From: Heterotrichella gracilis
Lineage: Eukaryota; Sar; Xanthophyceae; Tribonematales; Xanthonemataceae
Assembly: GCA_032358255.1 (NCBI GenBank)
Contig: JAULBX010026496.1
Coordinates: 1 to 64,000 of the forward strand
Reading direction: 5' to 3'
Length of the DNA: 64,000 nucleotides
Numbering within the stretch: the stretch's first letter is position 1; each line of letters begins with the position of its first letter. The notes below the pieces were generated by a model. That model made no database searches. It was not told the DNA's origin and worked only from the letters and a program-made list of their open reading frames with translations. Both the position numbers and the translations under genes were made by a program. Shown piece by piece: positions 1 through 64,000 of the stretch.

Positions 1-29
1 CTCTCACATACCCCTCCCACCTCCCCCAG

Positions 30-1701
30 GTCCCCCTACGCCTGACCACATCCATTCGCTGTCACCGAGGGCGGGCCAGGCGGAACCCCGTGCTGACGTG
101 GACATGGATATCGACTCCAGTGCCCCCTGCAAGGATTCGCGTGTGCGGCCCTTCCAGAGCCCGACAGCTGGCAGGGGTGCGCAGGGAGGGAGCAAGAAGC
201 TGCGCAGCGACGGGGGGGTGGAGGGGAGGGACGATACTGTGGGAGAGGAGGTGGAGGAGGAGGGGGGCCAGGCGGCGCAGCATTACTGGGAGGAACCAGA
301 TCCTGCACGGTAGGGGGAGGGTTTGGCTAGGGTTTGGTATAGGGTTGTGGTGCTATTGGTGGGAGTGCTTTCATCTCACAGATTATCGACGCAGCGATTG
401 GCCTCACTGTCGAGCTGCGATGCACAAAACATGCACACACAGACCCCCTATTTCACCCATTTGCTAGGTCGCTCATTGCTCGCTTCACACGTACATACCA
501 TTCCCTGCCTGCAGCGCGCTTGCCATGCTTGAGCGGGAGATGTCTGGGGTGGCGGGCTACGAGGCAAGGCCAGAGAGCGTTGACCTTGTGCGCACGCTGC
601 TTGAGCGGGAGTGCGCGGCGCAGGCCAGGATGGTGGCGGAGAGGAGAGCGGTGCAGGTGGGTGGGTGGGGTATGCTGGTGTCTGTGTGTGTGCGGGTGAG
701 GGGAGGGCGTATGTGGGGCGGCGGTGGTTGGAGGAGGATGCTTGGTGTGTAGAGTTGTGCGTTTGGTGAGGGTGGGGGGCGCTGGCGCGGCAGCGGTAAG
801 AAGGGGAGTGAGGGAGGCGAAGGTGGGAGGGTCTGTCTACTTGGGGGGATGGAGGTCGCTGCGGTGATGGGAAAAAGATAGGGTTGGGTTGCGTGGAATT
901 GGTGGGGCAGTCAATTGGCCCTTGCAGGGTGGTAAGGGGTTGTCCTTCCCAACATAATTGTACTTGTGCTGACAGCCCATGGTGTGTGTTCCCAGGCGTG
1001 CTCTGTGAGTGACCAAGGGGGGGAAGCCAATCAGGATCCCAGGGGCGGCCTGACTGCCGTGAAGAAGAAGAAAAAGGAGGTCACATGGGGATTGGAGGTG
1101 CGCACAACAACAGGAAAATACTGCCATATTGTACATCAATGCGTGCCTGCCATTTACTGCATGCGCATCCCATGAAACCCCTATGATACCCTTGGCTCCC
1201 CAAACCCGTCCTCACAATTCTTCTACCACTGCAGAAAGGGTCGACCACCCAAAGCCAGGACCCCTTTGACCTTGGCATGTCTCACCTAGCCCACACCGCA
1301 GCCACATTGGCAGGGCAGAGCTGGATCCGGATAAGCAATACCGATGCCATGCACCCCCTCTTATTACCCTAAAAGACACCCTACCCCTGCATTTGCAAAC
1401 CCTCCTCAATACCCTTTACAAGCCGAACTCCACGCAGGAAGACGCGGCCTCTCACAGCCAGGACCCCTCCGAGCTGGGGAAATCCCGCCTGGCCTATACC
1501 GCTGACACGTGGCAGGGCCAGCTGGACCCCGAGAAGCACCTGGGGCCTGGGCGCCATGGGCAGTGGACCACCACCAGCGGCACGGGTACCCAGCCGGGGC
1601 AGGCGTGGGGTGTGGGGGTGGTGTACAGTGGGGGAACGGAGGATGGCGAGGGCAGCTGCCTCAAGCTGCAGGAGGCCATTCGCCAGCAGCAGCTGCGGTG
1701 A
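30..1701 (+). CDS. Uncharacterised protein, 3' part of gene
   Basis: The gene enters from the left edge, so its start is outside the window. Exons fit at 30-309, 515-656, 996-1097 and 1438-1701 (TGA). All junctions are GT-AG and the phases agree. The visible product has a hydrophilic stretch with an acidic run (GEEVEEEGG), an alpha-helical charged segment (LVRTLLERECAAQARMVAER), a lysine run (KKKKKEVTWG) and a compact C-terminal part containing QPGQAWGVGVVYSGG and ending in IRQQQLR. I do not recognise the family; the Lys-rich and acidic parts would suit a nuclear protein, but that is a guess. An in-frame-looking segment at 1235-1276 is treated as a decayed copy of the last exon's start rather than an exon. 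A copy of the exon's later part lies beyond the stop (1764-1846). Confidence 0.6.
1228..1276 (+). repeat. Copy of the start of the last exon, inside the preceding intron
   Basis: The stretch repeats the acceptor and first ~40 bases of the exon that begins at 1438 (compare 1431-1479). Both carry a CAG acceptor followed by an AGCCAGGACCCC core. The copy still has a usable AG but leads to a stop if read through. Confidence 0.6.
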
Positions 1702-2645
1702 TGGGGTGCGGTTGCTGCCGTTCTAGGCAGCTGAGTTCACTTTTCGCCTTCACTTTTTTCTTGGTGGACCACCACCAGCAGCACAGGACGCAGCCTGGTC
1801 AGGCGTGGGGTGTGTGGCTGGTGTATAATAATGGACTGAGTGATGGCTCCAAAAATGGCAGCCATCCTCCGAGATGACCTTTTTCTGAGATGATTATCCC
1901 AGATATCAGCTGGCTACAGTTTCTTGTTTTTTGTCTTTTTCCGGCAAATGCATGGCTAGCCAGTGTTCGCTGGCTAACGCTTGCATTATAAAATATTTAC
2001 CAGGCTAGTAGCCAAGTGGCTGCTGTAGGTTACAATATTTTGTTTTAGTGGCCGTCCAGTTTTTGGCATGTGCGTCCCAGCTGCTAGCACTTCACAAACA
2101 CAATAGTGATGTCGTCAGGGGCCTACATTTAAATCGTTTACAAACACAAAGTGTACTGCTGGCAGGCTGCAAAATTGATTCAAACATCATTTTCACGAAT
2201 CATGCTCATCTCAAAATTATATTCAGGATTTAATCTCAGACAGGCACGCTGCACGCACTGTCCGTAGGCTGGCAATGTCATTGGTATTGTCCCACATAGT
2301 GATGATAATCTGTTAGACTGCCGCATTGCGCGCCTACAACAATGGCACCAGATGGCGTGTTCCCCCAAATGTAACAATTGTTGTCTAAACTTATTAAGTT
2401 TAATAATTTGAAGTTACACCAAGTCTTGAAGACGCACAGACCCAATCACATCAATGTTCGCGCGTTCCCCCAAATGTAACAATTGTTGCTGCAGCTCGCT
2501 TGCCATGATATAGCACCAAAAAGAAATAAATTACTGGCATGCATAAACATTTATAACCCTGAAGTCAAAGCCTGGCTGTTGCGGATTAATGCACGGCGTT
2601 TATACATGTTACCATATAATATGCAATCCCACTGGGCAGCTATGC
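1702..2645. other. Intergenic, with an exon copy and a 25-bp direct repeat
   Basis: The first part holds a copy of the upstream gene's last exon (1764-1846, aligned to 1563-1647). The rest is A/T-richer and I see no gene. A 25-base direct repeat starting GTTCCCCCAAATGTAAC lies at 2359-2383 and again at 2464-2488. Genes on both sides have their 3' ends here (convergent). Confidence 0.55.
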
Positions 2646-5716: not shown

Positions 5717-8700
5717 TCAATCCCATCCCTGGTCCCCAGAATCCTCTATTTCATCGTCGGATTCCGACTCCTCCCCCTCTGCGTACTCGCCTTGATCGTC
5801 ACCGCTCCCCTGGTAATCCCCTTGCTGCAATTCCTCTTCATCATCATCCCCCTCCTGGTAAGCCCCATATGTATCCTCCCCGTCGCCTTGATCGTCCAGC
5901 ACTTCTTCATCTCCTTCGACAGTTGGCACTGCACCACACCCACAAACTGTTCAGCTTCCCCATTGAATTTACTAAACCCGAATAGGCAGCGCCCCTTCAC
6001 CATGTAACGGCTTAGTCAGTTTAACCATGTCACGTCCTAGTCCTGGGAGTGAGATCGTTTAACATGTAGCGTCCTAGTCATTTAATGTCAACCATTTAAC
6101 GTCAACCATTTGATTCCCCTCCAATTAATGGTGTACGTGGCCCCCCACCCAAGCCCCCCACCGCCTGCTGCACTTACCCTGCGCCTCCTCCTCCTCCCCG
6201 CCCTGGTTGTCTTCCCCTTCGGCACCAGGCGCTGACCTGCCCCGCCGCAGGCCCAGGCGCACCGCATCCTCTGGGGCAAGGCCGGGGAGGGGGTCCTCCC
6301 TGCAAGGGGAAAACAATGCATGATCAACACAACCCTGTGGAGCATGCTGCTAGAATGAAAAGCTTGCTCACATCAACGCATGGTGCTCTAGCAAGTCAAA
6401 ACGGCCAAAACAATCAATACTTCACCAGCATGAGTATTACTATTGAGGTGCGGGCGTGTACCTGGGTATGCATTCGCAGCATCCATGCATGCGCCTTCCC
6501 TCCCCTCCCAGTTACCTGTGCACGCGTCCCCCCCTTGCCGCCTCCTGCTGCCACTGCATGTTGTTGCTGGCGCGGATGGCCTGCTTGATCTGGTCATCAA
6601 ACGCATCGTAGGTGTAGGACACAGGGGCGCCCCTCCGCCGGGATGACCTGCAGTGGGAGATTTAGGGTTGAGGATTTAAGGTTTATGTGTAGGACAAGGG
6701 GACACCCCTACGCCGGGAGGACCTGGGTCGACTGGGTGGGTGGCGGTGTGTGGTGTGGTGGGGACAAGGGAAGGGTGGAGAGGGGCATTGACGGTGGCAA
6801 GATGGGGGAAGGAGGGTATTCCTCCACCATCGCCCATCCCCACCCATCAAAACATACTCCCTACCTGGGTAAAAAGGGCCACGGTGGGTCTGCATGTATG
6901 CATATCATCATTTTTCTAGAATTGGCACTTGTTGATTATATTGGTACCAAAGCCTGGTGTTTGAAGTGCTATAATTTTTCTCCTCCCACCTATATACCAT
7001 GGCCACCTCCCCCAGAGCCCGCCTGGCCTTGGTCTTGGGTGCTATATATCCATCATTTGCCATTATTCTATACCTATTTATTGTTTCCCCATCCGCACCT
7101 GTCAACCATGACTACCTCCCCCAAAGCCCGCCTGGCCTTGGCCTTAGCCTTGCTGGCGCGCTCAAGCGCTTCGCGGCGCTCGGAAATGGCAACGGGGATG
7201 GACAGGAGCTGCGCGGGGAAAGGGAAAAAGGAAGCGAGAGCGGTGGCAGTGGGAGGGGGGAATGGCATGGAGGAAAACAAGGGGAGTGAGAGCTTTGGCA
7301 GTGGGAGGGGGGCATGGGGTGAGCGCTGTGGCATTGGGATGGGCAGAAGGAGGTAAATGAGCACTGGGGATGGGCCGGGAGTGTGATAGAATATATAATT
7401 ACTGCTCAGCCTTTCAACTTGACAACTATGGACTTATAAGCTACCAACACCACATCCTCTCCAATTGTGTATACATTCAAAATTTGCCTCGCAGGCGTTT
7501 GGGTTGACAACCGATGGTAATAACAGTGCATAGCTGCCGGCGCAGCCCTTAAACCCCAAATCCACCAGGGAAACCCTTAAACCCTAAACCTACCAGCCCA
7601 CTTAGCAGGGCATCCTGCTTCTTCTTGCTGCGCCCCAATTTCTCCCCCAGTCTCTGAAATTCTTCCTCATTTGACGCCACCAGGGTCCAGGGCCCAGGGG
7701 CGGGGACTGGCGCCCTAGATCCCTCCCCAGCTTTCAAAAACTTGGGTTTTCCACCTCGGGCCTTAGCTGGGAATTTCCCCTTGCTTTGGATGGGCTTGGC
7801 TGGAGATTTCATCAGGGATTTGACGAGGAGCTCAGACGGGACCTCCCGATAGAGGCGGATATCTGCACGGGGGGTTGGCAGGGGGCACCTCAATATAAAC
7901 CAACCTTCACACCCTCCTGGAGGGTAACGGTGCGGCCTGTTATGCAGACGTGTTGTAGGGAACGAGCTTGCCCAAATCCAATGTGCATGCTTCACAATGC
8001 TAGCATGCTCATCACCAGCAACAATGAAGGTCCTAATCATACTACCACTACCACGTGCACTACCACACAATGAAGTGAGTTGCAGCATGCACAGACAAAC
8101 GGGCAGGGCCGTACACAACTAGAAAATTAATCATTTTCCCAACAATCCCTGCCGCACACCTGTGGCTGTCTCAAAATCCTGCAGCCAGTACGCCACACCG
8201 CTGGCGTCGCGCCCGAGGGGACCTCGTCGGAAATCCGCCAGCGATTCCACCACCACAGGGGCCTCGACATTAGGTCCCCCGCGGCGGGCGGGGCCCCTAC
8301 TGGTCAGTGGCAGTGGGGGCTTGCGTTGCGGCTTGGCGGGCTGTGCAGCTGCCTCAATCCTGTCCCGGATGTCATTCCGCAGGGCCCGGACCTCGCACAG
8401 CGCCTTGAGGAGCAGTACCCTGTCGAGGACAACTTTAAGTGATACTAGCTTTGGTGATATCACATTGCAAATGTATTGCAAATCTATTACTAATATTGAT
8501 TTTGCAAACCGCCTTGAGCAGCAGTACCCTGTTGAGGACAACATTAATTTTTACTTGTTTTTTGTGATGTTGTTTTGCACAGCGCTTTCAGGAACAACAC
8601 CCTGTTGAGGACAGAGCAGCTCTTGCAATTGGGGGGTTGTGTGTGCTTATTTACATGACAGGATTCAGAACATTGATGGTGACAAGCCAGAACCGGGTGG

Positions 8701-10282
8701 CACAACCTGGCATGTTGTAATTATTCATGTGGCTGTACCCACACCAGGAGGACTTTAATATATCACCATTGTGATATATTAAAGTCCTCCTGCCCACACC
8801 ACCTCATGTGGTGACACGCATGTAGCTAGCTCCCTCACCGCTCGGCGCTGCTGAGGGCTGCATATGCGTGCTTCTCGCCACCCTTGGACGGGTGGAAGGG
8901 GGTGAGTTCATCCTCTGCATATGGGCCCATGTGCGTGCGCAGCTTGAGCGCCAGGTGGTACGCCCAGTTATCGTAGTGGATGTCGGTCTTGGCGCTGATA
9001 CCCTTAAGCAGGGTCTGCAAAGGGGGGGTAGGGAAGGATTAAGTGATGATACCCTTAAGCAGGGTCTGCATGGGGGGTGGGGTTTGGAGTGAGAGACTTT
9101 ACCCTTGAGCAGGGTGGTCAGGTATTGATGCGTGGTTGCGGGTCTGCTTGTCAGCGCCCCCTCAATGTAGCAAGGCTTTTGTGCAGGGATTGTAGAAGGG
9201 ACTCCCTTTACTGAGTAAAAAATGCAACATTTCATAACATTGAACATGGGATTGGCTGCAGTTAGAGATTAATTGATTCCCAATACCAGCAAGCAGACCT
9301 AACAGATCCCCGACAACCCAGATCTGCACTAAACACCTCATCAGCACATTTAACATCCTTATGCGCCCAGGCACCCCCCCATTCCCCAACCCCCAGCCCA
9401 GCCCTTACAATGTGGAGGTCCGCCAGCAAGCCCTCTTCCCCCACCGCCACCACCACCGCCTCCTCAAGCGCCTCCAGGGTAAACCCTAGCCCAGACCCTA
9501 GCCCCAGCTGGGGGGTGAACAGGCGCAGGAAATCGTACACCACTGCCAGCTGCCACATGCCACGGATGCGTTTCAGGTCGGAGGTGATTTGGGCGGGGGT
9601 GAGGTGGCGCTCAGGGGGGATTTGGGAGGGGGAGATCTCTGCGGGGAGGGGGAGGAGGGGGTAAAGGTCTGATGGAGGGGAGGTGTGATGGAGGCTGGGG
9701 GTGGGTGACAAGGGGTTGAGACTTAAGAAAACCTGGGTTAAGATGCTGTGCAGGTCTGGTATGGGAGGGGAGGCAGGGCAGGTGAAGGGAAGGGAGGGAG
9801 AAGACCAGAGTAGGACAAGGTTTCGGCAATGTCGACAGGCTGTGTGGTGCAAGGATCCAGCTACAGGTGGATCCACATTAACTTGCCTGCATCCTTGGGA
9901 TCCCACACGTGCTGCTACCACATGACCTGCACCCACCTTCCTCCAACTCCGACCCCTCCACATTTTCATCATACTCCCCCTGGCCGCTGCTCCCCGCACC
10001 CACATCGCCATCATCCCCAGGCTGCCACCCCCTCTCTGCCCCGCCATTGGACGCAGCCCTGCTGCCCACAGGCTCCCCCTCGCTCCCCGCAGCGATTTTC
10101 CTCTTTTTCACCCCTTGGCGGTGCCCACCACTCCCTATTAAGTCATCCTCATCCAGGTCTTCCGCGTAGGAAATTACTTTGGAGCGCTCCCGGAGGGCGC
10201 CTCCCCGGGATGTGTGGGCCCGCGTGTCGTTTTCTTGTTCCTGGTCTGCGCTGGGTGCTGTTCCTCGCAGCTTGCGGCGCAT
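5717..10282 (-). CDS. DDT-domain chromatin protein (DDR4-like), 9 exons, 618 aa
   Basis: Exons (5' to 3'): 10282-9937, 9638-9409, 9014-8839, 8419-8160, 7862-7594, 7208-7099, 6647-6516, 6299-6178, 5928-5717. Phases agree and the sum is 619 codons. An N-terminal part has a basic/acidic motif (RERSKVISYAEDLDEDD). A DDT domain follows (MWQLAVVYDFLRLFTPQL, FTLEALEEAV, LLADLHI), then WHIM-like stretches: KLRTHMGPY, VLLLKALCEVRALRNDI, SGVAYWLQDFE, IRLYREVPSELLVK. Next comes VASNEEEFQRLGEKLGRSKK and an APVSYTYDAFDDQIKQAI motif before a very acidic tail. This order matches plant DDT-domain proteins of the DDR4 type, which partner ISWI remodellers. Function here is inferred from family. Introns 2, 3 and 6 hold copies of neighbouring exon edges, and intron 3 also holds a hairpin. 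Confidence 0.85.
6999..7045 (-). repeat. Decoy copy of exon 6 end of the DDT gene, with donor
   Basis: This copies the end of exon 6 (7099-7150). Both read KARRALGEV followed by a donor in the same phase (…AG|GTGSGG), so the copy encodes nearly the same peptide and ends in a plausible splice donor. No convincing acceptor for it was found. It lies in intron 6. Confidence 0.65.
8503..8613 (-). repeat. Two copies of the exon 4 acceptor edge of the DDT gene
   Basis: The exon 4 boundary (8389-8433) is repeated at 8503-8542 and, more decayed, at 8571-8613. Each contains the GTACTGCTC(CT)CAAGGCG-like start of the exon and the pyrimidine-rich GTCCTCRACAG acceptor on the gene strand. Copies lie upstream of the true acceptor within intron 3. 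Confidence 0.7.
8746..8791. repeat. Perfect 21-bp inverted repeat with 4-base loop
   Basis: The arms 8746-8766 and 8771-8791 are perfectly complementary (AGGAGGACTTTAATATATCAC and its complement) around CATT. They are flanked on both sides by a direct CCCACACC word. The element sits in intron 3 of the DDT gene. The mTERF intron contains a diverged relative at 22992-23027. It looks like a miniature inverted-repeat element or a hairpin-forming insertion. Confidence 0.8.
9048..9120 (-). repeat. Two copies of the exon 3 acceptor edge of the DDT gene
   Basis: The exon 3 boundary at 9001-9030 (ACCCTTAAGCAGGGTCTGCA on the plus strand) recurs at 9052-9081 and, shorter, at 9101-9120. The copies keep the tgcagACCCTGCT acceptor context on the gene strand. 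Confidence 0.7.
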
Positions 10283-12861: not shown

Positions 12862-15800
12862 ATGTGTGCCTCCCTGCAGCTCCAAACCAGCCGCGCAGGT
12901 CCCTGTAGCCTACAGTGTAGGGCGCCATTCAGCTCGCCAGCACCACACAGGCGCAGCAGGTGCCAGCCGCTGCAGCGAGCCAGGCTGACGGTGGTTGTCA
13001 CCAGAGCCCAGGCAGATGAGGTGTACAGGAGGTGGGTACACCTTACACCCTCGCACCACTCACCGCCAGTGGCACACCTGGTCCATACAGGGTGTATGGT
13101 GAGGGTACCATGTCAGTATGGCAGCCTCCCCACACACCTTTGAACCAGCCAATAGGAGTGCAGAGACCGTAACCCACACCCTATTCACACAGCCAGACAC
13201 AACCCACGCACCCACGCACCTCCTTGAGACCTGTGCCCTTAGCTTGTGCCCGACTGCACTACATGTGTGGTTGTGTCTGACCACCCCCTTCTCCCCCTTG
13301 CAGCTTCTCAGACAACGGGGAGGTCACTGTGCTGGCTGTGAGGGGCACCAACCTGGTCAGGGAGGTAGGAACTGAATAACCTAAGCAGTACCTTGCATAT
13401 TCGTACATACTCGCAGCACCTGCACCCGTCCCACCCCATACCCCTTGCACCTTGGTTTTCTTTTTTTCCGTACCCAACCGTCAGTGTGAATTTGTTCGTT
13501 ATAAACTATTATATTGTATTTGTAGCGTCCTACCACATGCCTCCAGTTTGTGCACACATGTGGGGCACTACTTCTTGGCGTTGACCACCCACCACACCAC
13601 CACCACCACCACCCACCCGCAGGCATGTGAGCGTCACGGCACCGCCCCCACCGCCAGCGCAGCCCTTGGGCGCACCCTCATGGGCACCCTGCTGCTGGCA
13701 TGCTTCAGGCAGGAGGAGGAGACAACGCAGGTAAGGGGCTAGGGTTCACAGGGCAGGGTTCCAGTTTAGGGTTAGTGAGGAGGAGACCACGCAGTTGGGT
13801 GGGGAGCAGTGAGTAGGGTTTAAGAGGGCAGGTTTTACAGGGTAGATCTCATATTGGAGTTCAATGCTCAGGAGCTGAATGCAGGGTTCAGATTTGTGTG
13901 GCCTGCTTCGTCAAAATTACTGGGACCGAAAGGGGCTAGTGCGTAAATCATCAAACCTGGGCAGCGTCTCTGTTGCGTCGTTATAGATTGTGTATCGCTG
14001 GCCCCTTGATGACACAATAAAGTTGGCCTGTTTGCGTCAAAATTACTGGGACCGAAAGGGGCTAGTGCGTAATTGATGAAACCTGGGCAGCGTTTCTGTT
14101 GCATCCTTATAGATTGTGTATCGCTGGCCCCTTGATGACACCAGTAAAGTTGGCCTGTTTGCGTCAAACCTACTGGACCAAAAGGGGCTAGTGCGTAATT
14201 GATGAAACCTGGGCGGCGTCTCTGTTGCATCCTTATAGATTGTGTATCGCTGGCCCCTTGATGACACAGTAAAGTTGGCCTGTTTGCGACAACATTACTG
14301 GGACTGAAAGGGGCTAGTGCGTAATTGATTAAACCTACTGTACCAAAAGGGGCTAGTGCGCAATTTTAAATCTGGGCAGCGCCGCCTCTGTCACAGCATT
14401 CGGTAGAATCTGAGCCAACTCTCTAGTACAGCGAGCACCATTTCACCAAATATGGCCACCGGGTAGCCTATTTCAACCCCTACACTTTCCCCCCTCCCTT
14501 GCAGGTGTACTTCAAGGGCAATGGACCTCTGATGAACATCCAGGTCATTGCGGATGCCAAGGGCAACGTGAAGGGCAAGGTGGGAAACCCCCTGGCTGAT
14601 CCCCCCCTGCGGGCGGATGGCAAGCTCAATGTGGGAAAGGCGGTGGGGCGAGGTGAGGGGCGGGGCAAGGGGTCTGAAGCTGGCTAAAGGGTGGCGCTGC
14701 CATTTGATCATTTGGTCACTAAGAGGTCATAGAATGGCGTTGCTGTACTATACGGTATGAGCATTCAATGTGATCAACGCCAGGGTATGACAGCATTGTG
14801 CCATGGTCACACTTTGGTGATGATGAAATTGATGCTAAGCAAATTGTACCCTCCCCTGGGGCGCACATGTGACTGTGCCTGTGCCCCCCTTGCAGGCATC
14901 CTGTCCGTCATACGCACCCTCCCCTGGCAAGAGGCGCCCTACACAGGCATGGTGCCCATCACTTCCGGGGAAATTGCGGAGGATTTGGCACAATATATGG
15001 TGGACAGCGAGCAAACGAATTCTGCCCTTGGCCTGGGGGTGTCCATCAGTCGGGATGCCAGCGTGCGGGAAGCAGGGGGGTTCTTGATCCAGGTGGGTTC
15101 ATGTCACGGGTTTTGAAAACCTAGATTATGCTGTCTTCTCAGCCACGGCTCGAATGGCCATGTGGCTTCACTTGATGCGCTAGTGCACTGGCCTGTTAGT
15201 TTGGATAATCATTGAGGTGTCTCACATCCATGGACTAGTCTTGCGCCAATCCTCGCCCTAACATGCCTCACATGGGTGCATATGTGTCAATCCCCTACCG
15301 CATGTACCAACACCCCTGCATCAACCATACAAAACCTCTCAAACCCTGCAACTGAGCTGTGTCTTCCTTCTTTCCCACTCCGTGCACAGATCCTCCCCTT
15401 TGCATCCGACGAAACCATCTCCCAGCTGGAATCCAACCTGTCCCAGCTGCCCAGCGTGACAAACATGCTGCACGAGGGGCAGGGCCCGGCAGACATCATC
15501 GCACGGCTGCTGCACAACATGGGGACCAGCGGGCCAGGGTTCTGCCTAAACCCTAGGTAAGGGACTTTGTAGATAGTGCCCTATGTAAGAGGGTCGCCTG
15601 TTGTGTGTCGTGAGTTGTAAGGTGTGCGAATAGATAGCTCTAGGTAAGGGGTGGCCCAAACCCTAAGCAAGGGTTGCACCCAGCTGGATGTGGGTATAGG
15701 CTGCTGCATAGCTGTGAGGCCCTGACCAACACTTGATTTTTTTTTCCGCCCCACACCCACACCGCCTGCTACACGCACACGCACCTAACCACGCTCACCC

Positions 15801-46407: not shown

Positions 46408-48230
46408 TCATGCAGTACATACCACCCCGATTGCGGCTGAGCTTGTCTGGAGCTGTGCGGTGCCCTGGGTGGTGCTCAGCCCCACATTGTTGGTGGTGGC
46501 AGCCACGGTGGTGTCGCAGGCTGGGCCGGGGCACTTGGCGCTGGCCTGCGTGTTGACCCCGGCGGCCACACAGGCATCCCCCGTGCAGGTTGCGGTGCCG
46601 GTGGCGGTGGCGACGGAGGTGGTCTTGGTCACATCCACAGCTGTAGGGGGTGGAAAGGGGAGGTGAGTGGTTCATGGTACACGGTTAAGTGAAGGGGAAA
46701 AAGGGGGTCAGGGGTGAATGGTACATGAATGGCGGGGTTGGTCTTGGCCCTGCTGCCATGCACGCATTGCCTGCGCAAGTGGCGGTGCCGGTGGGGTTGC
46801 TTTTGGTCACTGACTGCTGGCATCCACAGCTGGGAAGGGGGAAGAGGGGGGCTGAGTGATTGTATTGTCACCCGGGCTCAAAGGCGGGGGGGGGGGGTTG
46901 CCTTGCTTAAATCTTCATCTGGAGCGGGGGGAGAGGGCTGTGGGCGACTGGTGGAGAGTGGGCCTCAGTTCAGCTAGTCACATTAGTATCTGTAAAGATA
47001 TCACTGCAACTTAGGTGACATATGCATGCGTGATGGCATCATGATGGCATGGCATGGCATGGCATGGCGTCATGATGGCATGGCATTCAACTTTCATTAA
47101 AATGAGGAAAGTAGCTCACGTGTAGCATATCTCCATGCTTGTACTACCACAGCCTAACACACAAATCATAAGGATTGAGCCAAATACTGGGCACATTCAA
47201 ACACTGCCATCATTGGCAATGCCGCGCCATAGCATCCCCTTCCCACCCATCCAAACCCCACGTTAAGGTTTCTAGCCATAGCACCCCCCGCAGGAACGTG
47301 TACTCACTTGTTCCCACATTCACAGCGCTTGTGCAGTCCGCTGCCTTGCCGGCGCACACCACAGCACCGGTGGAACTGGCACTGGCCTGGGTGCCATCCT
47401 TGGTGGACACCTGGCTGTCGACCGACTTGACCACAGTCCCCGTGTTAGGGTTTGTGTAGGTGGTGTAGGTATCCACGCGCACCTTCAGAAGTGCGCGGGG
47501 CATGCCTGTGGGGCAGAAGGGGGAGGGGTTGGGTTGTCAGCATGGCATGATCTGAAGGGGCGGAGTGTGACCCTTAGCATTGGGTGGGAATCATGGGCTG
47601 TACTACATATCAAATTTTGCAGCTCTTAGGAGTGGGGAGGGCATGGGGCGCACATGTGCATGTGGCACAACCGCATAGTCCAGGGCATACTCCCTCCTGG
47701 GCAGGGTAGCAATAATATTGGACTAGATGGATGCAGCTTTGTGACCCTTGAAACCACAAACTGTGTGACAAAAAGCGCCATTGAATGGAATTTCCAAGCT
47801 AGGCCATTGAGTCTGTGCAGTTGTGGCGCTCAGTAACATCCATGGAAAAAGGAAACAACTATTAAAGATAAGGACAATCCACATGCTGTGATTCAGCTGG
47901 CTATGCACCAGCAAGGCATAGCAGGATTTGTGAATACACAACCAAAAGAAGCCCGGGAGCACTGTTGGGAGGGCAAGAAAACAAGAAACTATCACAGGAA
48001 TCATTCCTGCAGCAGGGATCAAGGAATTCCTTTCAACCCCTCGCATGTTCAGCTCTGGGGACTCACTGCTGTAACACAGTACTAGTACGAGTCCCATTGC
48101 CGCTAACCCCCTCCTCACCTGCCACACATTGCACGCACAGCAGCGCCACCAGGCCACCCACAGCCTTGGAGCGCTGAACGCCGCCAGCTGAACGCCGCCC
48201 CTGCATGCCACGAATCGTACTGTCTCCCAT
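46408..48230 (-). CDS. Small secreted Cys/Thr-rich protein, 3 exons, 180 aa
   Basis: Exons 48230-48119, 47505-47308 and 46640-46408 join with agreeing phases (181 codons). The N-terminus has a basic region and a hydrophobic segment (AVGGLVALLCVQCVAG), a likely signal peptide or anchor. The rest is Thr/Ser/Ala/Val-rich with spaced cysteine pairs: VVCAGKAADC, ATCTGDAC and AKCPGPAC. This looks like a short repeated disulphide-loop motif. The composition would suit a glycosylated extracellular or wall protein. I recognise no family. A copy of the exon 3 start lies in intron 2 (46757-46840). Confidence 0.6.
46757..46840 (-). repeat. Copy of exon 3 start of the secreted-protein gene
   Basis: GGCGGTGCCGGTGGGGTTGC…TTTTGGTCAC…CATCCACAGCTGGG parallels 46583-46650, which includes the exon 3 acceptor. 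The copy is interrupted by small insertions. Confidence 0.65.
47038..47090. repeat. (ATGGC)n simple repeat
   Basis: Repeated GGCATGGCATGGCATGGC with CATGATGGCATGGC on both sides, in an intron. Confidence 0.85.
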
Positions 48231-49480: not shown

Positions 49481-52400
49481 TCAGGCCACCGGCGCGTACC
49501 CTCCATCCCGGTACGCATACCACTGTCCCGAAGCAGCATCCCCATACAGCTGGGATTTGGGGTCGTAGTAGCATCCCAGGCTGCCATTGTACCAGTAGCC
49601 CGAGGCCTCGTCATAGGCAAAGCCACCCACATCTGGGGGGGCGCCCTCGGGGGCGGGCAGGGGAGGGGTGGTGGTGGGTTGGTCGAGGGCCGGGTGAGGA
49701 GTGGTGGAGGCTTGGAGGTTCCCTGGCGTGAGGAGTAGGGCGTTAGGTGGGTGGCTGGAGGTACGAGGTGGCAGGAGTGTTGTTCATTGCCCACTTAATG
49801 TGTCATCATTCGCTATCATAAATTCATTCATCAAGGTGTAGGGAGCAGGGCGTGACTAAGCAGGGTGCCCATATTTCGTGAAACCTAAGAAAGTGTTGTT
49901 TGTCAGGGATGGTCCACTTGCATGCACCCACGTGCCCACTGTGGCATGGGCAGCACATTCAGTGGGCGGGTGCCACGGGGATCAGGCAGGCGTTCAGGGA
50001 AGTATGGGCTTTAGCTAGGGTAACACGGCATGCAGTGGGGCAGGACCCTGCTGCACCTTCCCCCTTTTCCCAAACCCGGTAGACCGAGGATGCACACACA
50101 GCAAAACCCTAAACCCGTGATTGACCCGCGCACCTGTTGAGGTATCCCCTGCTCCGCCATTCACCCCATCATGTCCAGCCGCTGCCGCTTGCAAATGAAG
50201 CTCCTCCTGTGGCTGACAGCTGGCAGATGGCACTGGAGGAACCCCCTCCACACCCTCAGAAACCCTCTCCACACCCTCATCGGGGTCTGAATCCCCGTAC
50301 ATGTCCAGGTCAGCATCCACAGCCTGAGGGGCCGCCTCGCTGGCTTCTGAATGGCCCATGTGCATGTCTCCATCGCCATCCTGGGCTGGGTCAGGTCCGT
50401 CCACAGTGCCTGCTGGGGTGCCCTGCCCACAAAAGAAGGAGTATACCATATTAATAGCTGCCAATAAGTACTGTATAGTCACTATTTATACTTTCGCGAC
50501 TCTGAATGTTAGAATGCACTTCTTGCTGCCACTGGTTGGTGCACCACGATACAGGAGCCCTGTACCGGCAACTGCAGAATCACCGATTATGATGAAAATG
50601 AAACAAGCAGGAATAACGGAATATTAAGTTCCTGCAGACCCTACCATTGGGGGTGTTGGGTGGTCAGGAGTGTGGGGTGCTGACGTGGCGAGCTGTGGTT
50701 GGGCGGTGGATGATCCAATGAGGTCAGCCAGGGTGATTTGGCTGGTGGTTTGGCCTAGCTCCCCCAGCATCTCCTCCCTGGTTTCATGATAAATATCATA
50801 GTCCCCATGCGCCATGAGCAGATTGGCGTACTCTGTCAGCCGATCAAACTCCGCCCTGCAGCCAAGTACAACCGATCAGTGGCTGATGTAATTTCTTGGA
50901 ATGATGGCGCAAGGGAGTGACGTCACTGTCCTTCCAATATGCTTGCTGTGAGTTGCAAGGTGTCTCCATAATCCCTGCACACCTGGTCATAAACCCTACA
51001 CCCTAATCATGCTGTACCATACAACACATCTGTTCTGCTGGGGCACCGCATAGTTCCTAAGTTCTACACTCTTAACACATCTTGCGCACACCATCTACCT
51101 CCACCATTAAACGCTGCACATCCTACACCAAACATTCCACCCCAACCCTCCACCCCACACATGTCGTAGCACACCACCCACCTGTTCTGTTTAGGCACCA
51201 CGCGACCCTAAACCCTAATTCAGTCAAAAACCCTAAACCTAAACCCCACACATGTCGTAGCACACCACCCACCTGTTCTGTTCAGGCACCAAGCGGCCCT
51301 AACCCTAATTCAGTCAAAACCCCTAAACCTAGGCCTTAAACATGCTGCAGCACACCACCCACCTGTTATGTTCAGGCACCACGCGCCCCTTCCTCCCTCG
51401 CCCCGCTTTGGCTGCCGGCTCACCGGGTGTGGCTTGCGCTTGGGCCCCCTTCCCCCCGCCGCGCCCTCCCCTTCCCGCCCCACCCGACGATGACGCCCCC
51501 CCTCCCCCCAATCTGCGAAGCGCCTGGTGAACAGTGGCAGAGATGTGGGTGAGCCGTCGAGTGGCGTTCAGGGCTGTTATCTCATTTTAAACAAAACGTG
51601 GGGTTCACAAACTGGGGTTACATGCTGCTTTCAACAAGTGGGTCGGTGGCAGATGAGGCAACCAGGCTTGCCACACAGACCCTAAACCCTAAGCCCAAAA
51701 CCGCACACCCGCACCTCCAGGAGTTTACCCGAACTGCAGTATCCCAGTCCATGCTTGTACGTAGTGCCCAGCTCCACTTTTTCGCCATCACTGCACTGAA
51801 CCCTAAACCCTTACCCTCCGCCCTCCTATCCAGCCCGTCTCCTTGCACAACAGCAGCACTGCCACTCACAACCCTACACCTCCAAACCCCAAACCCTAAA
51901 CCCTCACCTCCAGGACCGTCTCCCCATACTGCAGCATCCCCGCCAGCCGCTGCTTGTATGCGCTCAAGTCCTCGGCATCCACTTCTTCGTCATTATCGCC
52001 CCCCCCTGCCGCAGCCTGCTGGGCCGCGCGAGCAGCCAACCCCTCGTCCACTTCCTCACCTGAAAAGCACGGAAAGCGCAGGGGGGGTTATAGAAGGGAA
52101 GCAGGGAAGCCTACAAACCTCCTTCAAATCCACTAAAACCCTAGTTCCCTCATTATCAAGAAACCCTTGACCCCCAACACCGTGGGTCGTTGCAGCGGCA
52201 TGGCTCAATGACTTGCACTCCCACTAAAGATGGAGTGCATGTCATGCCATGTTCAGTGATGCCATCTTATTTTAAATCTTCGTTTTGGTCACCGAAATTG
52301 GGGCCCTCTACGGCCCTTTTCCTCGTTATAGTGGGGACGAAATCAGGCGTTCGCAGTCCCAAAACCTCGTTTCGCTGGTTCATTACAGTGGGGCAAGAAG

Positions 52401-56480: not shown

Positions 56481-59400
56481 TCATTGCGCTGCCATCTCTT
56501 GGAGCTGGTGCAGTACTGCATTAAAGCTGGGGCGCTGCTGGTGGTCGGCGTGCATGCACCTCCTGGCAAGGTCCTGCAGGCACAGGGGGGCACCGAGGTG
56601 AGATGTTTGAAATATTTACTTGAATTATCATCGGATTAATTGGCATGCAGCTCCTGGCAAGGTCCTGCAGGCGGCACAGGGTTGTACATAGGTGAGGCGT
56701 ATTATCATTTTAAACCGTTATTTCCTCTCAAGAAAGTGGTGGTGCACAGGTGGGGTCGACAGGCGCGCACGCACCTCCAGCCCCTGGGGCGTGCCTGGCA
56801 AGAAGGCCAGGCAGGCCTTCATGAACGCAACCTTCGTGATGATCCGAGGGGGGCCACGTGCCGTGCCATGCAATTCTTTGCTTTACCATCTTGAAATTCG
56901 GTGCAACAGCTGTTCAGTCCCAAGGGATAAAACACAGCTTTCCAAACACGCACCTCCAGCCCCTGGGGCGTGCCTGGCGGGAAGGCCAGGCAGGCCTTCA
57001 TGAACGCAACCTTCGTGATGATCTGAGGGGGCCGCATGCCGTGCCAGGCCCGCTGCCCGCACCACATCTCCCACACCAGCACCCCAAATGCATACACGTC
57101 GCAGCTGGGGGTGAGCAAACCCTCAGACAGCATCTCGGGGGGCATGTGGGTGACAGTGCCCTGGCTGGCGGTGGTGATTGACCCGCTCTGCAGCACGCGG
57201 CTGAGGCCAAAGTCCGCCACCTGGCAGATGGATTGGGTGAGTAAATGGTGTGGGAGTAGAGTGGTGTTTGGGAGGGAGTGGGGTATGGTGTGGTGGGAGC
57301 AAACTATTATTGGGGGTGCATCTTGGGCTGCATGTGGGGTGACTGTGCCTTTGCAGCGCCAACCTGACGGACAGGGTTCATAACCTACATCCAGTTAACC
57401 ATGGCCGCACCTTTGCCACTGCATCGTCCCCATTGCTGGTCAGCAGCACGTTCCCCGCCGACAAGTCCCCGTGTATGACTGAGTGCTCGTGCAGGTAGGC
57501 CATCGCTGCTGCAATGTCAGTGGCAACCCGCAGCACCCGCCGCAGCACCGCGGGGGAGGAGCTGTCGGTGGGGTCTGCAAGGGAACATATATTTATTTAT
57601 ATATAATGTCAATGAACACGCGAAATTGTAGTTACTGGACATCAGGAGCCACTCAGTGCTGCACCAAGGCTGGCAAGCCCCTCCTGGCCACCATCCAATC
57701 TGCATAACTGTCCTCGCATAAATCATTAACTTGATGAAGAATTTATAATAAATTGCCATGTATATTCACAACCTGCTGGAACCTATGCAACTAACCCAAC
57801 CAACTGCATGCACCCTACCTTCTCGGAAGCGGCCCCTATCCACCGCGCCCTGCAGCGACCCCCCACCGCAGTACTCCAGCACCATCCACGTCTCGAGCTG
57901 TCCAGAAAAGGTGGTGGCACCGGGGAAGACGCGGCCAGGCCCCGATCCAGAGCTTGTTGAGAAGGTGGTGTGCTTGTAGGTCTGGACGATGTTGGGGTGC
58001 GACAGCTGGCGGCACAGGGCGGCCTCTAGGGCTGGGTCCCCTGTGGAGCCTGAGCCTGAGCCGCTGGCAGACACCCCCTCATTGTGCACCATCACCTGCA
58101 GCCACAGTAAGGGTTTAGGGTTTTCAGAAACAGGGTGTGGGGTTGTGCCGCTGCAAATTAGAAGTGGCTCAGGGTTCAGGGATTAGGGTTTGTAGACCAG
58201 TCTCCAAGGCCAAAGACGCTAAAACAATCCTCAAAAGGCACAACCTGGCATCATTCTTGAAATGTTATATTGGCCCAGGCTGGTAATACTGCACTGCGCA
58301 CACACCTTGACCGCCACCTGGTTCCCGCTCCACAGGCCGCGGTACACGCGGGAACACGGTTTTCCTCCCCGAATTTACATTACAAGCTGGTCAGCTGACC
58401 CGATTCTAACTTTCCCCCTTTTTTAACCTGTTTTAATGTGATCAAACATGCTCACTTAAAATGGTGCTAGGCACTTGTTAGCCTCAATGGCCTCAAATGA
58501 CCCTGCCTGGGAACACTGCTCTGCGCACACACCTTGACCGCCACCTGGTTCCCGCTCCACAGGCCGCGGTACACGCGGCCATACGACCCCGCTCCAATCA
58601 TTGGCCCCAGCTGCACATCAGTGAATGGGTCCCGCTGGGGGGTGGTGGACAGGGAGAAGGTGGAGGAGGTGGAGCTGGTGGAGGTGGCGCTGCTGATGTT
58701 GGCCTGCAGGGGATGGTGGATGGTGGTGGGGGGCGGGGGGTGGATATAGTTGACGATTTAAATATTATATATTTGGCAAATAATTTGCGAAAGGGTAAAA
58801 TGGGTAGCACGAAAATGCGGTAAGCGGCACGACTGGTTGGCCATCTGTCACACTGGAAACAGTGTCAGTCAAGCCTTGGCTCTTGGACTGCGGTGAGGCA
58901 TACCCAGGCATGCTAATCTGGCTTCTACGCTGGAATGCACGTACGTACTTACTTTTTATTTGGCAAAGAATGTTCTATATTGCAGGGGATGTGGGGTGTG
59001 TCCATGTGTGTGTGTGTGTGCGCATTGCGGGGGTGCATCCTGAAGGGTTTAGAGTTTAGGATTTAGGGTACATCCTGGCTGGTCTAGGGTTTAGGGTGTG
59101 GTGTGCGCACCTCCACCACTCCAAAATAGTAGTTGGCTCCCTCCCCTGAGAAGGGCACGTAGTCAGGCACAGCAATGGCGGGCATGTTGGGGCCAAGGGA
59201 GGTGCTATTGCTGGGCCTGGGGGGATGAAAACCAGGGGTGAGGTGGGGTTTAACAACATAAAGAAAAAGAAAAGTTTGTTTAACAGAAACCCATGGAAAC
59301 GTTGTGAACTCCACTAAGTACTGTGCAATCCAGCTTTGAAGCCATGCCTGGGTATGCCTCGCCGCAGTCCAGGAGGCAAGGCTTGCTTGGCACTGTTTCC

Positions 59401-62400
59401 AGCGTGGCAGATGGTGGCCAGCCAGTCGTGCGGCTTACTTTACTACCCATGTCAGCAAAAGTTGTTCATGAAAAAGACAAAATGGACACCACATCCCAAC
59501 AATTTCCAACAGAACGAGTGGGATGGGCCGCATTGAAATGGGACACGGGCGCACACCTGAAAGCCACCTTGTGTATGCTGCCACGCTTGAAAGCTGGGTG
59601 GCAGTGCACTGCAAAGCTGGCACCCACAGCGGCGCAGGCTCGGTACCCCGCAACGCTGTTCTGCAGGGGGGAAGTGGGGGAATTAAGGCTGGTTTAGGGT
59701 GAAAGTGGGGGTGGGGGAGATATGCAGCATTGTTAAGCAGATTGCCTCCTGTGCGTGAGAATACCAAAACCCTAGATTTTAGACCTAAACCCTAGAGTGC
59801 ACTGATGCGCGGTACCCAGCTAGGCTGTTCTGCAGGGTGAGGTGAGGAAATGAGTGCGGGGTTTAGGGTTTGGGGTTAGAGTGGTGTAAGGGTGCACAGC
59901 GTTGCCAAGCAGACTGCAATCATGCGCACGCCTCTTGTGGGGCAAGGATGGTGCATGTGCAGTCCAAAACCCTAAACACTACGTCCTAAACTCTAGTACC
60001 CCACACTGCCTACCGATGGCTTCACCTCAATGGGCCATATGATTATGCACACTGACGTGGAACATGTGGCAAGTCATGGCGGCACATGCCTCGGGGTCGC
60101 GAACCTAAGCATACCCAGCTACACCCTAAATCCTAACCCTACAACCCTAAACCCTACGCCCTAGGCACACCTTGCTGTCAGCTGGCTCCATGAGGTCCCA
60201 GAACTGCCTGCCGATGGCCTCTTCGCGGTCGATACCTGCACGCACGCACCAGGCAGGAGGGTTTAGGGTTCAGGATTTAGGGTAAGGGTTGACCAGCACG
60301 CATGCACCAGTTGGAGGGTTTATAGTTTGGGGTTTGATTGCACGCACACAGTACGTGGGAGGGGGTAGGCCGCAGCAACACGCAGTGGGGTGCATGGCAG
60401 CGGCGCCGTGCTGTGCAAACCCTAAACCCTACGCCCTACGCCCTAAGCCAGCAAGCAGTGGTGTGCAAGGCAGCAGCGCCTTCCTGCGCAACCCTAGAAC
60501 TCTTACTCTGGCTGCATTGCTGCAATGCACGTAGCTAACCAATAAACAGGAGTGTAAACCGACTAGCCAGGCTGGCCCACCACCTCCAAACCAAGCTGAG
60601 GGGCGGGCAGGTGCGCACCTGTGATTCGGGTCCATGCCTCGTTGGCGTACACCACCTCCCAGTTGCTGCCCTCGGCGTTACTCAGCATGACCACACCCTC
60701 AGACAGGCTGTCGGTGGCTCTGCACAGCTGGCACTGCGGGGGGCACGGCGAGAAGCGGCAGCGTTAAAAATGGGGAATGGGAAATGATGTGGTTTGCCCT
60801 TGACACACCTGCCTTCCCGTTGAGTAGTTGGTCATGCTAGCTGCCGTTTTTGAAACGAGCTGCGCTTGTACTTGTGCTTGTAATCTGTTTCCATGGATGC
60901 GGGTGTGGTTGTACAAATTTATTGCTAGCCATTTTTATACGCTAACAGAAATGTTAAATGTATTGTTCTCTAAATGATGAAGAGTTTTGCTGATACTCGG
61001 GATGGTACCCACCTGCATTGCTGCCGCAGCGTTTGCCGCCGCCATGTCCCGCTCCAGCTCCCGCATCACCACCTCGGCAAAATTGCACAGCAGGTTGCAT
61101 TGCTGCGCGTCCAGTGTGCGCGGCTTGCTGTCAATCAAGCACCTGCGGGGAGGGTTTTAGGGTTTTAATGCCATTAGGGTTTTGGGGTTTTAATGTCATC
61201 AGGTTGCACTGCTGCGCGTCCAGCGTGCGCGGCTTGCTGTCAATCAAGCACCTGCCGGGAGGGTTTTAGGGTTTATGTCATCAGGGTTTTGGGGTTTCAG
61301 GGTTGAGGGTCGAGGGTGAGTGGGCCCAGAAGGCAGCTGTGGAGCGGGGTTTGGGTTTGAGGGTCAAAGTGGCAGGCAGGGGTCCAGGTGGCAGCCTGTG
61401 GTGGTTTCTAGTGTTTGGGGTTTTGGCAAAGCTCCACAGCAGCTTGCATTGCCGCACATCCAGCCTTGCCCATGTGGACGCAACGAGTGGTTTAGGGTTC
61501 GGGGACTAGGGTTTCGGGTGCGCGTCCAGGACTGCCCGTGTGGACGCAGCGCATGGTGCGATGAGGTGTTGCTGCTTAGAAGCGCAGCTTCAGACTTTCC
61601 CTAGGGTTTAGGGGTCAGCGTTTAGGGTGTACTTACAGTGTGCCCAGGGCTTCCCCTGTGGACGCGATGAGTGGCGCTGCTGCGTAGAAGCGCATCTTCA
61701 GTCCCGTCACCAACGGGCTGTTCTTGAACCTGCAAACATACGAAAGAGGCGAGGCGTAAGGCAGGCTGTGTCTGGGTACCGTGTCCGGGACTGTGTCTGG
61801 GGACTTTGCATTTGGGTTTAGGGATTTCAACGTACCGGGAGTCTCGCGTGAGGTCCTCCACCAGCAGCACCTCTGGGTTCTCAGACAGGATGGCCCATGG
61901 GTTTAGGGTTGAGGGTGCGAGTTCCAAGGTTTACGTTCAGAAAATCCACATACAAAACAATATAAAATCAAAGTAGGCATACTTTTATTTCATTAAATTT
62001 TATTAAAGTAATTAAAATGTAGCATCAGTACTCACCGAGAGTCTAGGCTCAGGTCCTCCACCAGCAGCACCTCTGGGTTCTCAGGCAGGATGGCCCACGG
62101 GCACATGGCGGTGCACACCCCCGGCTCCCGGTCCCCTTGGCTCCCGGGGATGCCCTGCTTGGATTTCATCCACACCCGATCCGTGTCAACCAGGGTGACG
62201 GCGGAGGCAGGCACCCCGAACAGGCTGCACATGAGCTTGGTGATGTGGTCAAAGCGGGGCTCCGGCTCTGTATCCAGCATGCCTAGGGAGCAAGGGGAGA
62301 GGGATGAGCCGGGCTTAGGGTTTAGAATGTAGGGTTTAGGGCTCGGGGGCTGTGTCCAGCATGCCTAAGGAAGAACAGGGAAACTCAAGTGAATACAAAA

Positions 62401-62980
62401 TTAGGTGCATACATACATATAACCTGGCTTCAAAGCTGGAAAGCAACTACTTACTTACTTACTTACATACATACAAGTGATTCAAGATGGTAAGTGATGG
62501 AGATAAGTGGGTTAAAATAAAAACTGATAAGTGGGGCTAGGGCTCGGGTGTCCAGCATGCCTAGGGAGCATGGGGAGAGTAATAGAGCAGGGTTAGGATT
62601 TAGGCTTGGGCTGTGTGTTCCAGCATGCCTTGCGAGCAAATGGAGAGTAATAGAACGGTGACAGCCCTACCTAGCAAGGTCAGCTTGGCATGCCTGCGCC
62701 TCTCCTTTTCCGCCACCGGCCACCCAGAGTTGTAGGCGGGGATGCACTCAAACCCCTTGGCGGAGTCCATGGATGTCCTGTCATGGGGCAGCACGCCGTT
62801 GCCCTTGCCCCCCACTGTTTGGCCTAGCTCGGCAGTTGTCACCCACCCCGGTATGCCAGGGTTGTACTGCTTGCCAAGGACAGCTGGAGCCATTGGCACC
62901 TCGACGTTTGCGGCCCCTGGCCAACTGAAGGGTTTATTGTCTGGAGAGGGCTTGTCTAGAGAGGGCTTGGCTTGGGCGTG
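56481..62980 (-). CDS. GAF-PAS-TKL protein kinase, at least 13 exons, ~684 aa from first ATG
   Basis: Exons: 62980-62671 (first ATG 62893), 62282-62036, 61729-61637, 61142-61013, 60733-60619, 60235-60171, 59660-59557, 59216-59111, 58703-58533, 58095-57819, 57574-57411, 57220-56954, 56573-56481; phases agree. A GAF domain (FDHITKLMCSLFGVPASAVT, WMKSKQGIPG, MRFYAAAPLIASTGEALGTL) is followed by a coiled stretch (VVMRELERDMAAANAAAA). A PAS domain comes next (WEVVYANEAWTRITGIDREE, IGRQFWDLMEP, NYYFGVVEV), then the kinase: IGAGSYGRVYRGLWSGNQVA with VAVK, LSHPNIVQTYKH, VIHGDLSAGNVLL, VADFGLSRVL, MPPEMLSEG, DVYAFGVLVWEMW, QQRPSFNAVLHQL. It is Tyr-kinase-like (Raf/MAPKKK-type). HRD is HGD, so it is a non-RD kinase. 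The sensor half suggests small-ligand, light or redox input. An upstream Pro-rich exon (63302-63150) may exist, so the start is uncertain. Confidence 0.88.
56647..56690 (-). repeat. Copy of last-exon start of the kinase gene
   Basis: GCAGCTCCTGGCAAGGTCCTGCAGGCGGCACAGGG parallels 56555-56590 (GCACCTCCTGGCAAGGTCCTGCAGGCACAGGG), the exon 13 acceptor region, some 90 bp away. Confidence 0.75.
56751..56880 (-). repeat. ~110-bp copy of exon 12 end of the kinase gene
   Basis: 56770-56872 matches 56949-57051 with only a handful of differences and includes the donor (GGAG|GTGCGTG on the gene strand). It encodes almost the same peptide (VAFMKACLAF). This is a nearly complete decoy exon end 3' of the real one. 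Confidence 0.9.
58293..58352 (-). repeat. Near-identical copy of exon 9 end of the kinase gene
   Basis: About 60 bp (ACTGCGCACACACCTTGACC … GGTACACGCGG) is the same as 58519-58580, including the donor. It encodes RVYRGLWSGNQVAVK again. The near identity points to a very recent duplication. Confidence 0.9.
59807..59842 (-). repeat. Copy of exon 7 start of the kinase gene
   Basis: GCGCGGTACCCAGCTAGGCTGTTCTGCAGGGTG repeats the exon 7 acceptor edge (59639-59669: GCTCGGTACCCCGCAACGCTGTTCTGCAGGGGG). TTTAGGG words follow. Confidence 0.75.
60090..60520. repeat. Telomere-like filler and direct repeats in kinase introns
   Basis: Runs such as CCCTAAATCCTAACCCTACAACCCTAAACCCTA (60124-60157) and GGGTTTAGGGTTCAGGATTTAGGG (60259-60282) flank duplicated words. 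These include CACGCAYGCACCAGxxGGAGGGTTTA (60240 and 60299) and AGTGGxGTGCAxGGCAGCxGCGCC (60382 and 60456). Confidence 0.75.
61196..61275 (-). repeat. Copy of exon 4 start of the kinase gene
   Basis: GGTTGCACTGCTGCGCGTCCAGCGTGCGCGGCTTGCTGTCAATCAAGCACCTGCCGGGAGGG is ~95% identical to 61093-61155. It contains the acceptor and encodes LIDSKPRTLDAQQCN. A third, decayed copy is at 61434-61470. TTTTAGGGTTTT filler lies between. Confidence 0.9.
61459..61600 (-). repeat. Two copies of exon 3 end of the kinase gene
   Basis: CCCGTGTGGACGCAGCGCATGGTGCG…TTAGAAGCGCAGCTTCAG (61532-61592) and CCCATGTGGACGCAACGAGTGG (61469-61490) repeat exon 3 (61653-61700: CCCTGTGGACGCGATGAGTGGCG…GTAGAAGCGCATCTTCAG). Confidence 0.8.
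61832..61905 (-). repeat. Copy of exon 2 end of the kinase gene
   Basis: GGAGTCTCGCGTGAGGTCCTCCACCAGCAGCACCTCTGGGTTCTCAGACAGGATGGCCCATGGG is ~90% identical to 62037-62102. It encodes WAILSENPEVLLVEDLTRDS against WAILPENPEVLLVEDLSLDS in the exon. Confidence 0.9.
62349..62650 (-). repeat. Three copies of the exon 2 acceptor edge of the kinase gene
   Basis: GTGTCCAGCATGCCTARGGAGCA-like segments at 62349-62378, 62547-62577 and 62607-62640 repeat the exon 2 boundary (62268-62300, CTGTATCCAGCATGCCTAGGGAGCAAGGGGAGAG). Each has the CTAG|GCATGCTGGA acceptor on the gene strand. Confidence 0.8.
62452..62475. repeat. (TTAC)n / (ATAC)n microsatellite
   Basis: ACTTACTTACTTACTTACATACATAC in a kinase intron. 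Confidence 0.9.
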
Positions 62981-64000
62981 CTGCAGGCAGAGGAAGGGAT
63001 GATGGTGACGTTTGGAAGGGTACAGCTGGGGGTGAAGGGTTTAGGGTTCAGGTTTTCCAGAGCGGGCTTGGCTTGGGCCTGCTGCAGGCAGGGGAAGGGG
63101 CGGGGTAACACTATGGGGTGACGTTTGGAGCGGGGTCGGCTGGCGGCGAGGGTTCAGGGTTTAGGGTTTTCGAGGATTTGCTGACGGGTGGAGCAGGTAC
63201 AGCTGGCGGTAAGGGTTTAGGGTTGATGGCATAGTTTAGGGGCGAGCTGAAATGGGGAGATATGGAGCTGCTGGCAAGGTTTATGAGTGTAGGGTTGGCC
63301 AAAGGGAAATGGGCAGGGTTGAGGTGGAGGGGGAATGGCTAAAGCTGCTGGCTCTACGCAGCAGCCTGGTTTGCACAATGAGAACGCGGTTTAAACCCTT
63401 GCACCCATAACTGATGGCATAAGGCACAATGCTCAGTTGAGAGCTGACTGCATATCTAGGGGGATGACAGCAGTTGTTCTTGGAAGTGCGCTGCTATTGT
63501 TACTGTTGGCTTTTCCCCAATGACCATCTACTTGCGCTCATATTATACAGCTTGGAGGCTGTTTAGCGTTTTCAAGGGTGTCAAAACGCTGTGCACAACT
63601 GCATGGCATGAAGTGGCATGCGGCACTTCACCCACCCACTCACAAGTTGTTCATACACAAACGGGTCTGCGCGGGGGAGGGACAGTTCAACTAAGTGAGG
63701 CGCACCATTGGCGGCCGCAGACAATCCATGTTCGAAGTGCACGACTACGTGGCAAAGTCATACACATATGTCCTACCGGATGGGCTATGCCAGTCACCGT
63801 GGCAGTTTGCGTCAAATTGGTGGTTGCACAATCTAGCATAGCTGACACAATCTAGCATAGCTGAACGCGATCGCTACCATGGTGGAAGACAGGCTCATCG
63901 AGGGTGCTATTCAGGTGCGTCGGTCTTACCTGCACGTCTGGCCTTGCTGCCACAGGGCGTGCCTCTTTGGACGAGGCGCAGCCCATGATGATAAGGTAAC
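62981..64000. other. Upstream of the kinase gene; repeated exon-edge words, possible Pro-rich exon
   Basis: GGCTTGGCTTGGGCSTGCTGCAGGCAGRGGAAGGG occurs at 62965-62999 and 63067-63101. A GGxxCxGCTGGxGGxxAGGGTT word occurs at 63021, 63126 and 63196 with TTTAGGG units. On the minus strand 63302-63150 reads a Pro/Ala/Ser-rich peptide (LPPAVPAPPVSKSSKTLNPE) that may be an upstream exon. Past 63350 I see nothing identifiable. A short plus-strand frame near the right edge (from 63880) runs out of the window. Confidence 0.4.

Follow-up and report, generated by a model that had tools for sequence, protein, structure and literature searches.

Introns in the stretch of Heterotrichella gracilis DNA analyzed here, a 64-kb window (contig JAULBX010026496.1, positions 1–64,000) to which all counts and the approximate local gene models refer, contain direct copies of the edges of their own adjacent exons. 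In the typical layout, D-F-D', two copies of a segment (D and D') flank a filler (F) that is itself unduplicated in most pairs, and telomere-type repeats are associated with the duplicated regions. With a probability of roughly 0.55, we attribute the copies to error-prone repair of staggered double-strand breaks, of which they would be the scars. An earlier reading of the same sequence (the original prediction) had proposed that introns lengthen here by such copying, through local break repair with templated filler, and this interpretation is partly supported.

Direct copies of adjacent exon edges

Self-alignment of the window (score of at least 40; overlapping tiles leave some redundancy in the counts) gave 47 direct repeats at short offsets, 24 at 50–150 bp and 23 at 150–300 bp. 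They thin out farther away, with 4 at offsets of 300–600 bp and 1 at 600–2400 bp. Only 1 inverted repeat of that score lies within 600 bp, and this direct orientation and short spacing are those of short tandem duplications at staggered breaks.

The copies are tied to the adjacent exon. An intron matched an adjacent exon in 14 of 152 intron-exon comparisons, compared with 2 of 607 for non-adjacent exons of the same gene and 2 of 6960 for exons of other genes, and no inverted match of equal score occurred in those comparisons. The original prediction depended on adjacent-exon matches being commoner than others, as they are, and all 14 examples that it listed are present, including 9001/9052/9101 and 16282/16379 (Table 1). 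For 8389, 8503, 6999, 16282, and 18337, one automatic comparison had overlapping windows; the scores that it gave there are self-matches and were disregarded. Ten of the 14 adjacent-exon matches end no more than 1 bp from the exon edge; the copied side is the donor side in 6 and the acceptor side in 8. The copies are 22–134 bp long (in agreement with the usual 25–110 bp of the original prediction), and the identities of the listed examples range from about 70% to 93%, in agreement with the graded divergence, or age, described earlier. By inspection, the splice-site AG or GT is kept in most copies, as had also been claimed, with exceptions at 19522 and 44057. By the models, about eight to nine genes are affected, fewer than the "at least ten" first reported. 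Because the copies diverge by 7–30%, an assembly artifact was ruled out.

Detectable duplication footprints cover 4,672 of the 25,724 analyzed intron bases (18%). Therefore, intron lengthening, as originally suggested, is a fair reading. Over all pairs, mismatches amount to 18.7% at third, 14.7% at second, and 11.3% at first codon positions (some frames are approximate). Such drift at every position is expected where selection constrains one copy and leaves the other mostly neutral.

Filler, telomere-type repeats, and the origin of the copies

The filler resembles neither flank in 16 of 19 pairs, including pairs whose copies are 90–93% identical (the exceptions are 19421, 59638, and 62252), and its length ranges from 6 to over 200 bp. 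Plain, abutting tandem units are found at 61088, 51139, 62952, and 13899. Copies that either abut (as in the arrays and at 61088 and 62952) or have nothing but unrelated filler between them are characteristic of staggered-break duplication.

Telomere-type repeats, which the original prediction overlooked, are concentrated in the introns. Permutations of the 7-mers TTTAGGG/CCCTAAA occur 550 times in the window against 52 expected, which places short internal stretches of telomeric units above chance, and their density reaches 15.9 per kb in introns, compared with 1.9 in exons and 2.7 in intergenic DNA. At least one repeat is present in 43 of 84 introns, about half. We observed about 100 short stretches in both strand orientations (e.g., 16318–16334, 38120–38223, 51189–51246, and 60123–60156). 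Clusters within 60 bp of exon edges number 36 against 26.3 ± 3.7 (p = 0.006), and the repeats cover 7.9% of the intron bases in duplication footprints compared with 3.0% outside (circular-shift p = 0.0004). A telomere-type repeat is present in 7 of 15 short fillers (up to 60 bp), with 1.6 expected (p = 0.0006). Two junctions, marked here by a slash, are in telomeric register. At 39283/39284 (CCCTA/AACC), the filler TCCAAAACCCTAGACCCTA runs on into the second copy, and at 61901/61902 (...CCATGGG/TTTAGGG), the original reads CACATGG after GGG. A role of these repeats as splicing signals was rejected because the strand bias is too weak (272 sense C-rich versus 199 antisense 7-mers, and 41 versus 34 clusters); acceptors show a slight C-rich bias (11 versus 4).

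In the repair that we propose, a segment D of about 25–110 bp would sit between two offset nicks, and fill-in of both overhangs would leave D on both broken ends, which would account for the direct duplication. A filler, often a few telomeric repeats plausibly made by telomerase acting on the 3′ overhang, would be added, and end joining would convert X-D-Y into X-D-F-D'-Y. Where D has at least one end in an intron, splicing could rely on either copy and skip its partner; the event would then be tolerated, and the intron would grow by D + F. Exon-edge pairs would stay recognizable longest because selection maintains one working exon edge, with that copy constrained as coding. We infer the staggered breaks, fill-in synthesis, telomerase, and end joining from what is observed, namely the direct-only geometry at 50–300 bp, the lack of duplication in most fillers, the gradation of ages, and the links to the adjacent exon and to telomere-type repeats. 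The direction of change would be gain rather than loss of copies, and their age, rate, and use as splice decoys are likewise putative. The original prediction was correct that no standard element class explains the copies, but a standard mutation class does exist, short tandem duplication at staggered breaks.

Several points weigh against this reading. If telomerase set the polarity, TTTAGGG should immediately follow D or CCCTAAA immediately precede D', but the counts do not support this (13 versus 10, p = 0.68), and the telomere statistics come from a single 64-kb window with events that are not fully independent. The filler in several of the youngest pairs (56768 and 58271) is AT-rich and non-telomeric. 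Unequal exchange or slippage explains the ordinary tandem repeats at 51139, 13899, and 61088 equally well; of these, 51139 and 61088 carry telomere-type repeats inside the unit.

Plain short tandem duplication by slippage or unequal exchange would require no breaks if the intronic part of each unit has decayed, so that only the constrained exon-edge part can still be recognized, and if the telomere-type repeats are an independent feature of the introns. Complete tandem units do exist at 61088 (offset 109, match 103), in the 51139 and 13899 arrays, and at 62952, and at 58271 the intronic part has visibly decayed, with differences at 6 of 47 intronic-called bases and at 0 of 34 exonic-called ones. 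However, because the filler is unrelated to the flanks even where the copies are 90–93% identical (as in the young pairs at 56768, 58271, and 61834), most pairs are not plain tandem duplications with decay. The telomere motifs are also non-randomly tied to the duplication footprints. We regard this explanation as possible but rather unlikely.

Polymerase theta would be expected to leave templated fill in both orientations. Templated insertion of this type, or template switching, would copy nearby sequence into break junctions, in line with the local origin and variable length of the copies and with the shuffled exon remnants in one intron (described below). However, the absence of inverted adjacent-exon copies and the single local inverted repeat against 47 direct ones make it quite improbable. 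The templated filler of the original prediction is not supported because only direct copies occur, whereas its break repair fits best.

If the copies were alternative or mutually exclusive exon ends with a function maintained by selection, this could explain why most copies keep AG or GT, why several pairs are ungapped, and why the repeat at 46558–46794 (46558/46748) has mismatches at 8 third and 3 first codon positions and at no second position. This repeat is probably an internal protein repeat in an exon missed by the model. The mismatches at every codon position over all pairs and the frame-breaking gaps in several of them render such selection very improbable. A mobile element or introner family inserting near splice sites with long target-site duplications, with F as the element, formally equals the D-F-D' layout but is highly improbable, given the filler lengths, the near absence of shared repeats beyond 600 bp and of one sequence family in many introns within the window, and the atypical size of 60–100 bp target duplications. 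Precise intron gain by tandem duplication was also rejected; donor and acceptor registers were identical at 14.0 of 50 positions compared with a null of 14.1, and intron 56574–56774 was a single weak outlier.

Whether exon edges are targeted by the proposed repair was evaluated against random events under the condition that the insertion leaves the coding sequence intact. The expectation was 10.2 ± 2.4 edge events of 28 (about 37%), compared with 19–23 observed: 16 scored, plus seven that the gene model called disrupting; on inspection, three of these seven (6977, 56768, and 61088) proved to be edges, and the rest touch exons. The expectation rises to 15–19.5 if pairs with a constrained copy are detectable 2–4 fold longer. 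Geometry and detection bias thus partly explain the apparent targeting, and a modest true excess at exon edges is possible. A stronger version, in which recurrent telomerase-linked repair with a preference for exon-intron boundaries (such as breaks that transcription or splicing causes there) makes introns grow and leaves edge duplications, telomeric filler, and recurring decoy splice sites, is tentative and on balance doubtful.

Catalogue of the copies and other features of the window

The window is intron-rich nuclear DNA with a G + C content of 54%. The window itself supplied the training data for the gene models, in which some exons are shifted or missed (e.g., the real acceptor near 39305); an initial training (677 introns) was overfitted and was dropped. 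The models are confirmed because they encode proteins recognizable in a Pfam scan: a GAF-PAS-kinase, Hsp33, an mTERF protein, a SnoaL/NTF2 protein, a transferrin-like protein, and an OCRE-domain protein. The median intron and exon lengths in the models are 280 and 149 bp, respectively.

Table 1. Exon-edge copies and related repeats in the window.
Span	Strand	Feature	Identity or evidence
1226–1538	+	Acceptor-side exon-start copy 1226–1337 in intron, real edge 1430–1538; 92-bp filler has CCCTAAA	73%
1563–1825	+	Last-exon sequence copied into 3′ flank	87%
6609–6725	-	Exon edge 6609–6650, intron copy 6684–6725; 33-bp filler mainly TTTAGGG-like	83%
6977–7145	-	Exon-edge copy 6977–7036/7084–7145; 47-bp AT-rich filler	84%
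8395–8613	-	Acceptor-side edge 8395–8452; intron copies 8504–8561, 8577–8613	83–84%
8997–9115	-	50-bp unit, 2.4 copies, at exon edge (9001/9052/9101)	Tandem-repeat and alignment evidence
16280–16400	+	Hsp33 last-exon start 16371–16400, upstream copy 16280–16309; filler holds GGGTTTAGGGTTTAGGG soon after copy	24/30 identical by eye
18336–18504	+	Exon-start copy 18336–18402, real edge 18434–18504; 31-bp filler holds AACCCTAAAACCCTAACCC	77%
39193–39355	+	Cleanest case: copy 39193–39264, 19-bp filler TCCAAAACCCTAGACCCTA wholly telomeric, acceptor-bearing copy 39284–39355	86%
42895–43205	+	Donor-side edge 42895–42972, intron copy 43128–43205	79%, ungapped
43781–44184	+	One exon: acceptor copy 43781–43829/43868–43915 and donor copies 43975/44057/44163	82–91%
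50992–51390	-	91-bp tandem array up to exon edge (51380); telomere-type repeats in units	Tandem Repeats Finder (TRF) and BLAST
51669–51993	-	Edge copy 51669–51788/51860–51993	71%, gaps counted
56552–56696	-	Edge copy 56552–56602/56643–56696; AT-rich filler	83%
56768–57049	-	Kinase exon donor-side edge 56947–57049, downstream copy 56768–56871; 75-bp unduplicated filler, no flank match	93%
58271–58578	-	Kinase exon edge 58498–58578, copy 58271–58351; 146-bp unduplicated filler	93%
61076–61463	-	GAF exon acceptor edge 61088–61190, near-perfect tandem copy 61197–61297, remnant 61425–61463; telomere-type repeats in both copies	92%, 82%
61834–62101	-	Final 66 bp of exon and donor GT (62034–62101) copied at 61834–61901; terminal GGG of copy adjoins TTTAGGG	90%
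62252–62654	-	Acceptor edge in four copies (62252, 62339, 62529, 62603)	80–85%
62952–63224	-	Edge repeats 62952/63053/63196; units contain TTTAGGG	75–93%

By eye, the intron at 61252–61636 holds shuffled remnants of both the upstream and the downstream exon with TTTAGGG stretches between them, which suggests that it records several successive events. An intron of the Hsp33-like gene contains a tandem array of a 126-bp unit (13899–14336, 3.5 copies, 92% matches). In the mTERF gene, the long C-terminal coding exon has an in-frame 246-bp tandem duplication at 22228–22727. At 8745–8792, an intron contains an inverted repeat with perfect 22-bp arms around a 4-base loop (CAGGAGGACTTTAATATATCAC), possibly a small inverted-repeat element. 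The transferrin-domain gene spans 33107–40293 (Pfam E = 6e-20); this family is known from some green algae. An Rfam scan of the window gave zero matches, and no relatives were found among the viral contigs searched.

Comparison with known systems

The origin of intron length is poorly understood. A comparative study of the Chlamydomonas-Volvox group described introns that are long and lack the usual short peak, and it left the driver unknown (PMC8226300). We found no account of such an intron pattern in green algae in the open literature, a weak sign of novelty since subscription papers were mostly outside the search. The repair proposed here could be one route of intron growth in this genome. 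A graded insertion record, datable against the constrained exon copy, would make the question of intron growth directly testable. Such a record would also predict that decoy splice sites arise continually, and telomerase or telomere-processing factors would be tied to everyday break repair in genes.

CST is a telomere complex. The closest experimental parallel is the formation of tandem duplications at breaks whose 3′ overhangs are filled in by CST-polymerase alpha (CST-Pol alpha) before the ends are joined (PMC8355091, PMC5730883). In evolution, the closest parallels come from mammals and rice. Breaks in horse, rodents, and primates have received telomeric repeats, and about 5–16% of the loci show a direct duplication of the target (PMC7215372, PMC2246262); rice insertions of 10–1000 bp include tandem and partially tandem duplications (PMC7407515). 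Combined, these parallels would explain the D-F-D' layout, the telomeric filler, and the direct orientation together.

The copies resemble staggered-break tandem duplications (CST-Pol alpha and the "patch-mediated" rice insertions) in direct orientation, size of tens to hundreds of bp, close spacing, and multiple rounds. They differ in the unduplicated, often telomeric filler of most pairs and in the retained set tied to exon edges. Mammalian interstitial telomeric sequences are also short internal stretches, sometimes with direct target duplication, and are rare or absent in exons. In humans, their intronic share of 31% is consistent with random insertion (PMC7215372), whereas here the intron density is about six times the intergenic one and the repeats lie close to the edges of exons. 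Intron gain by tandem genomic duplication (duplicated AGGT; PMC3443670) shares duplicated segments across splice sites, but here introns lengthen, and donor and acceptor generally do not lie within matching copies in register. Gap-filling insertion between direct repeats (reviewed in PMC3443670) shares the layout, but here the repeats are long (25–110 bp) and the intron is pre-existing. Each ingredient is known elsewhere; what looks unusual in these introns is the density and the association with telomere-type repeats.

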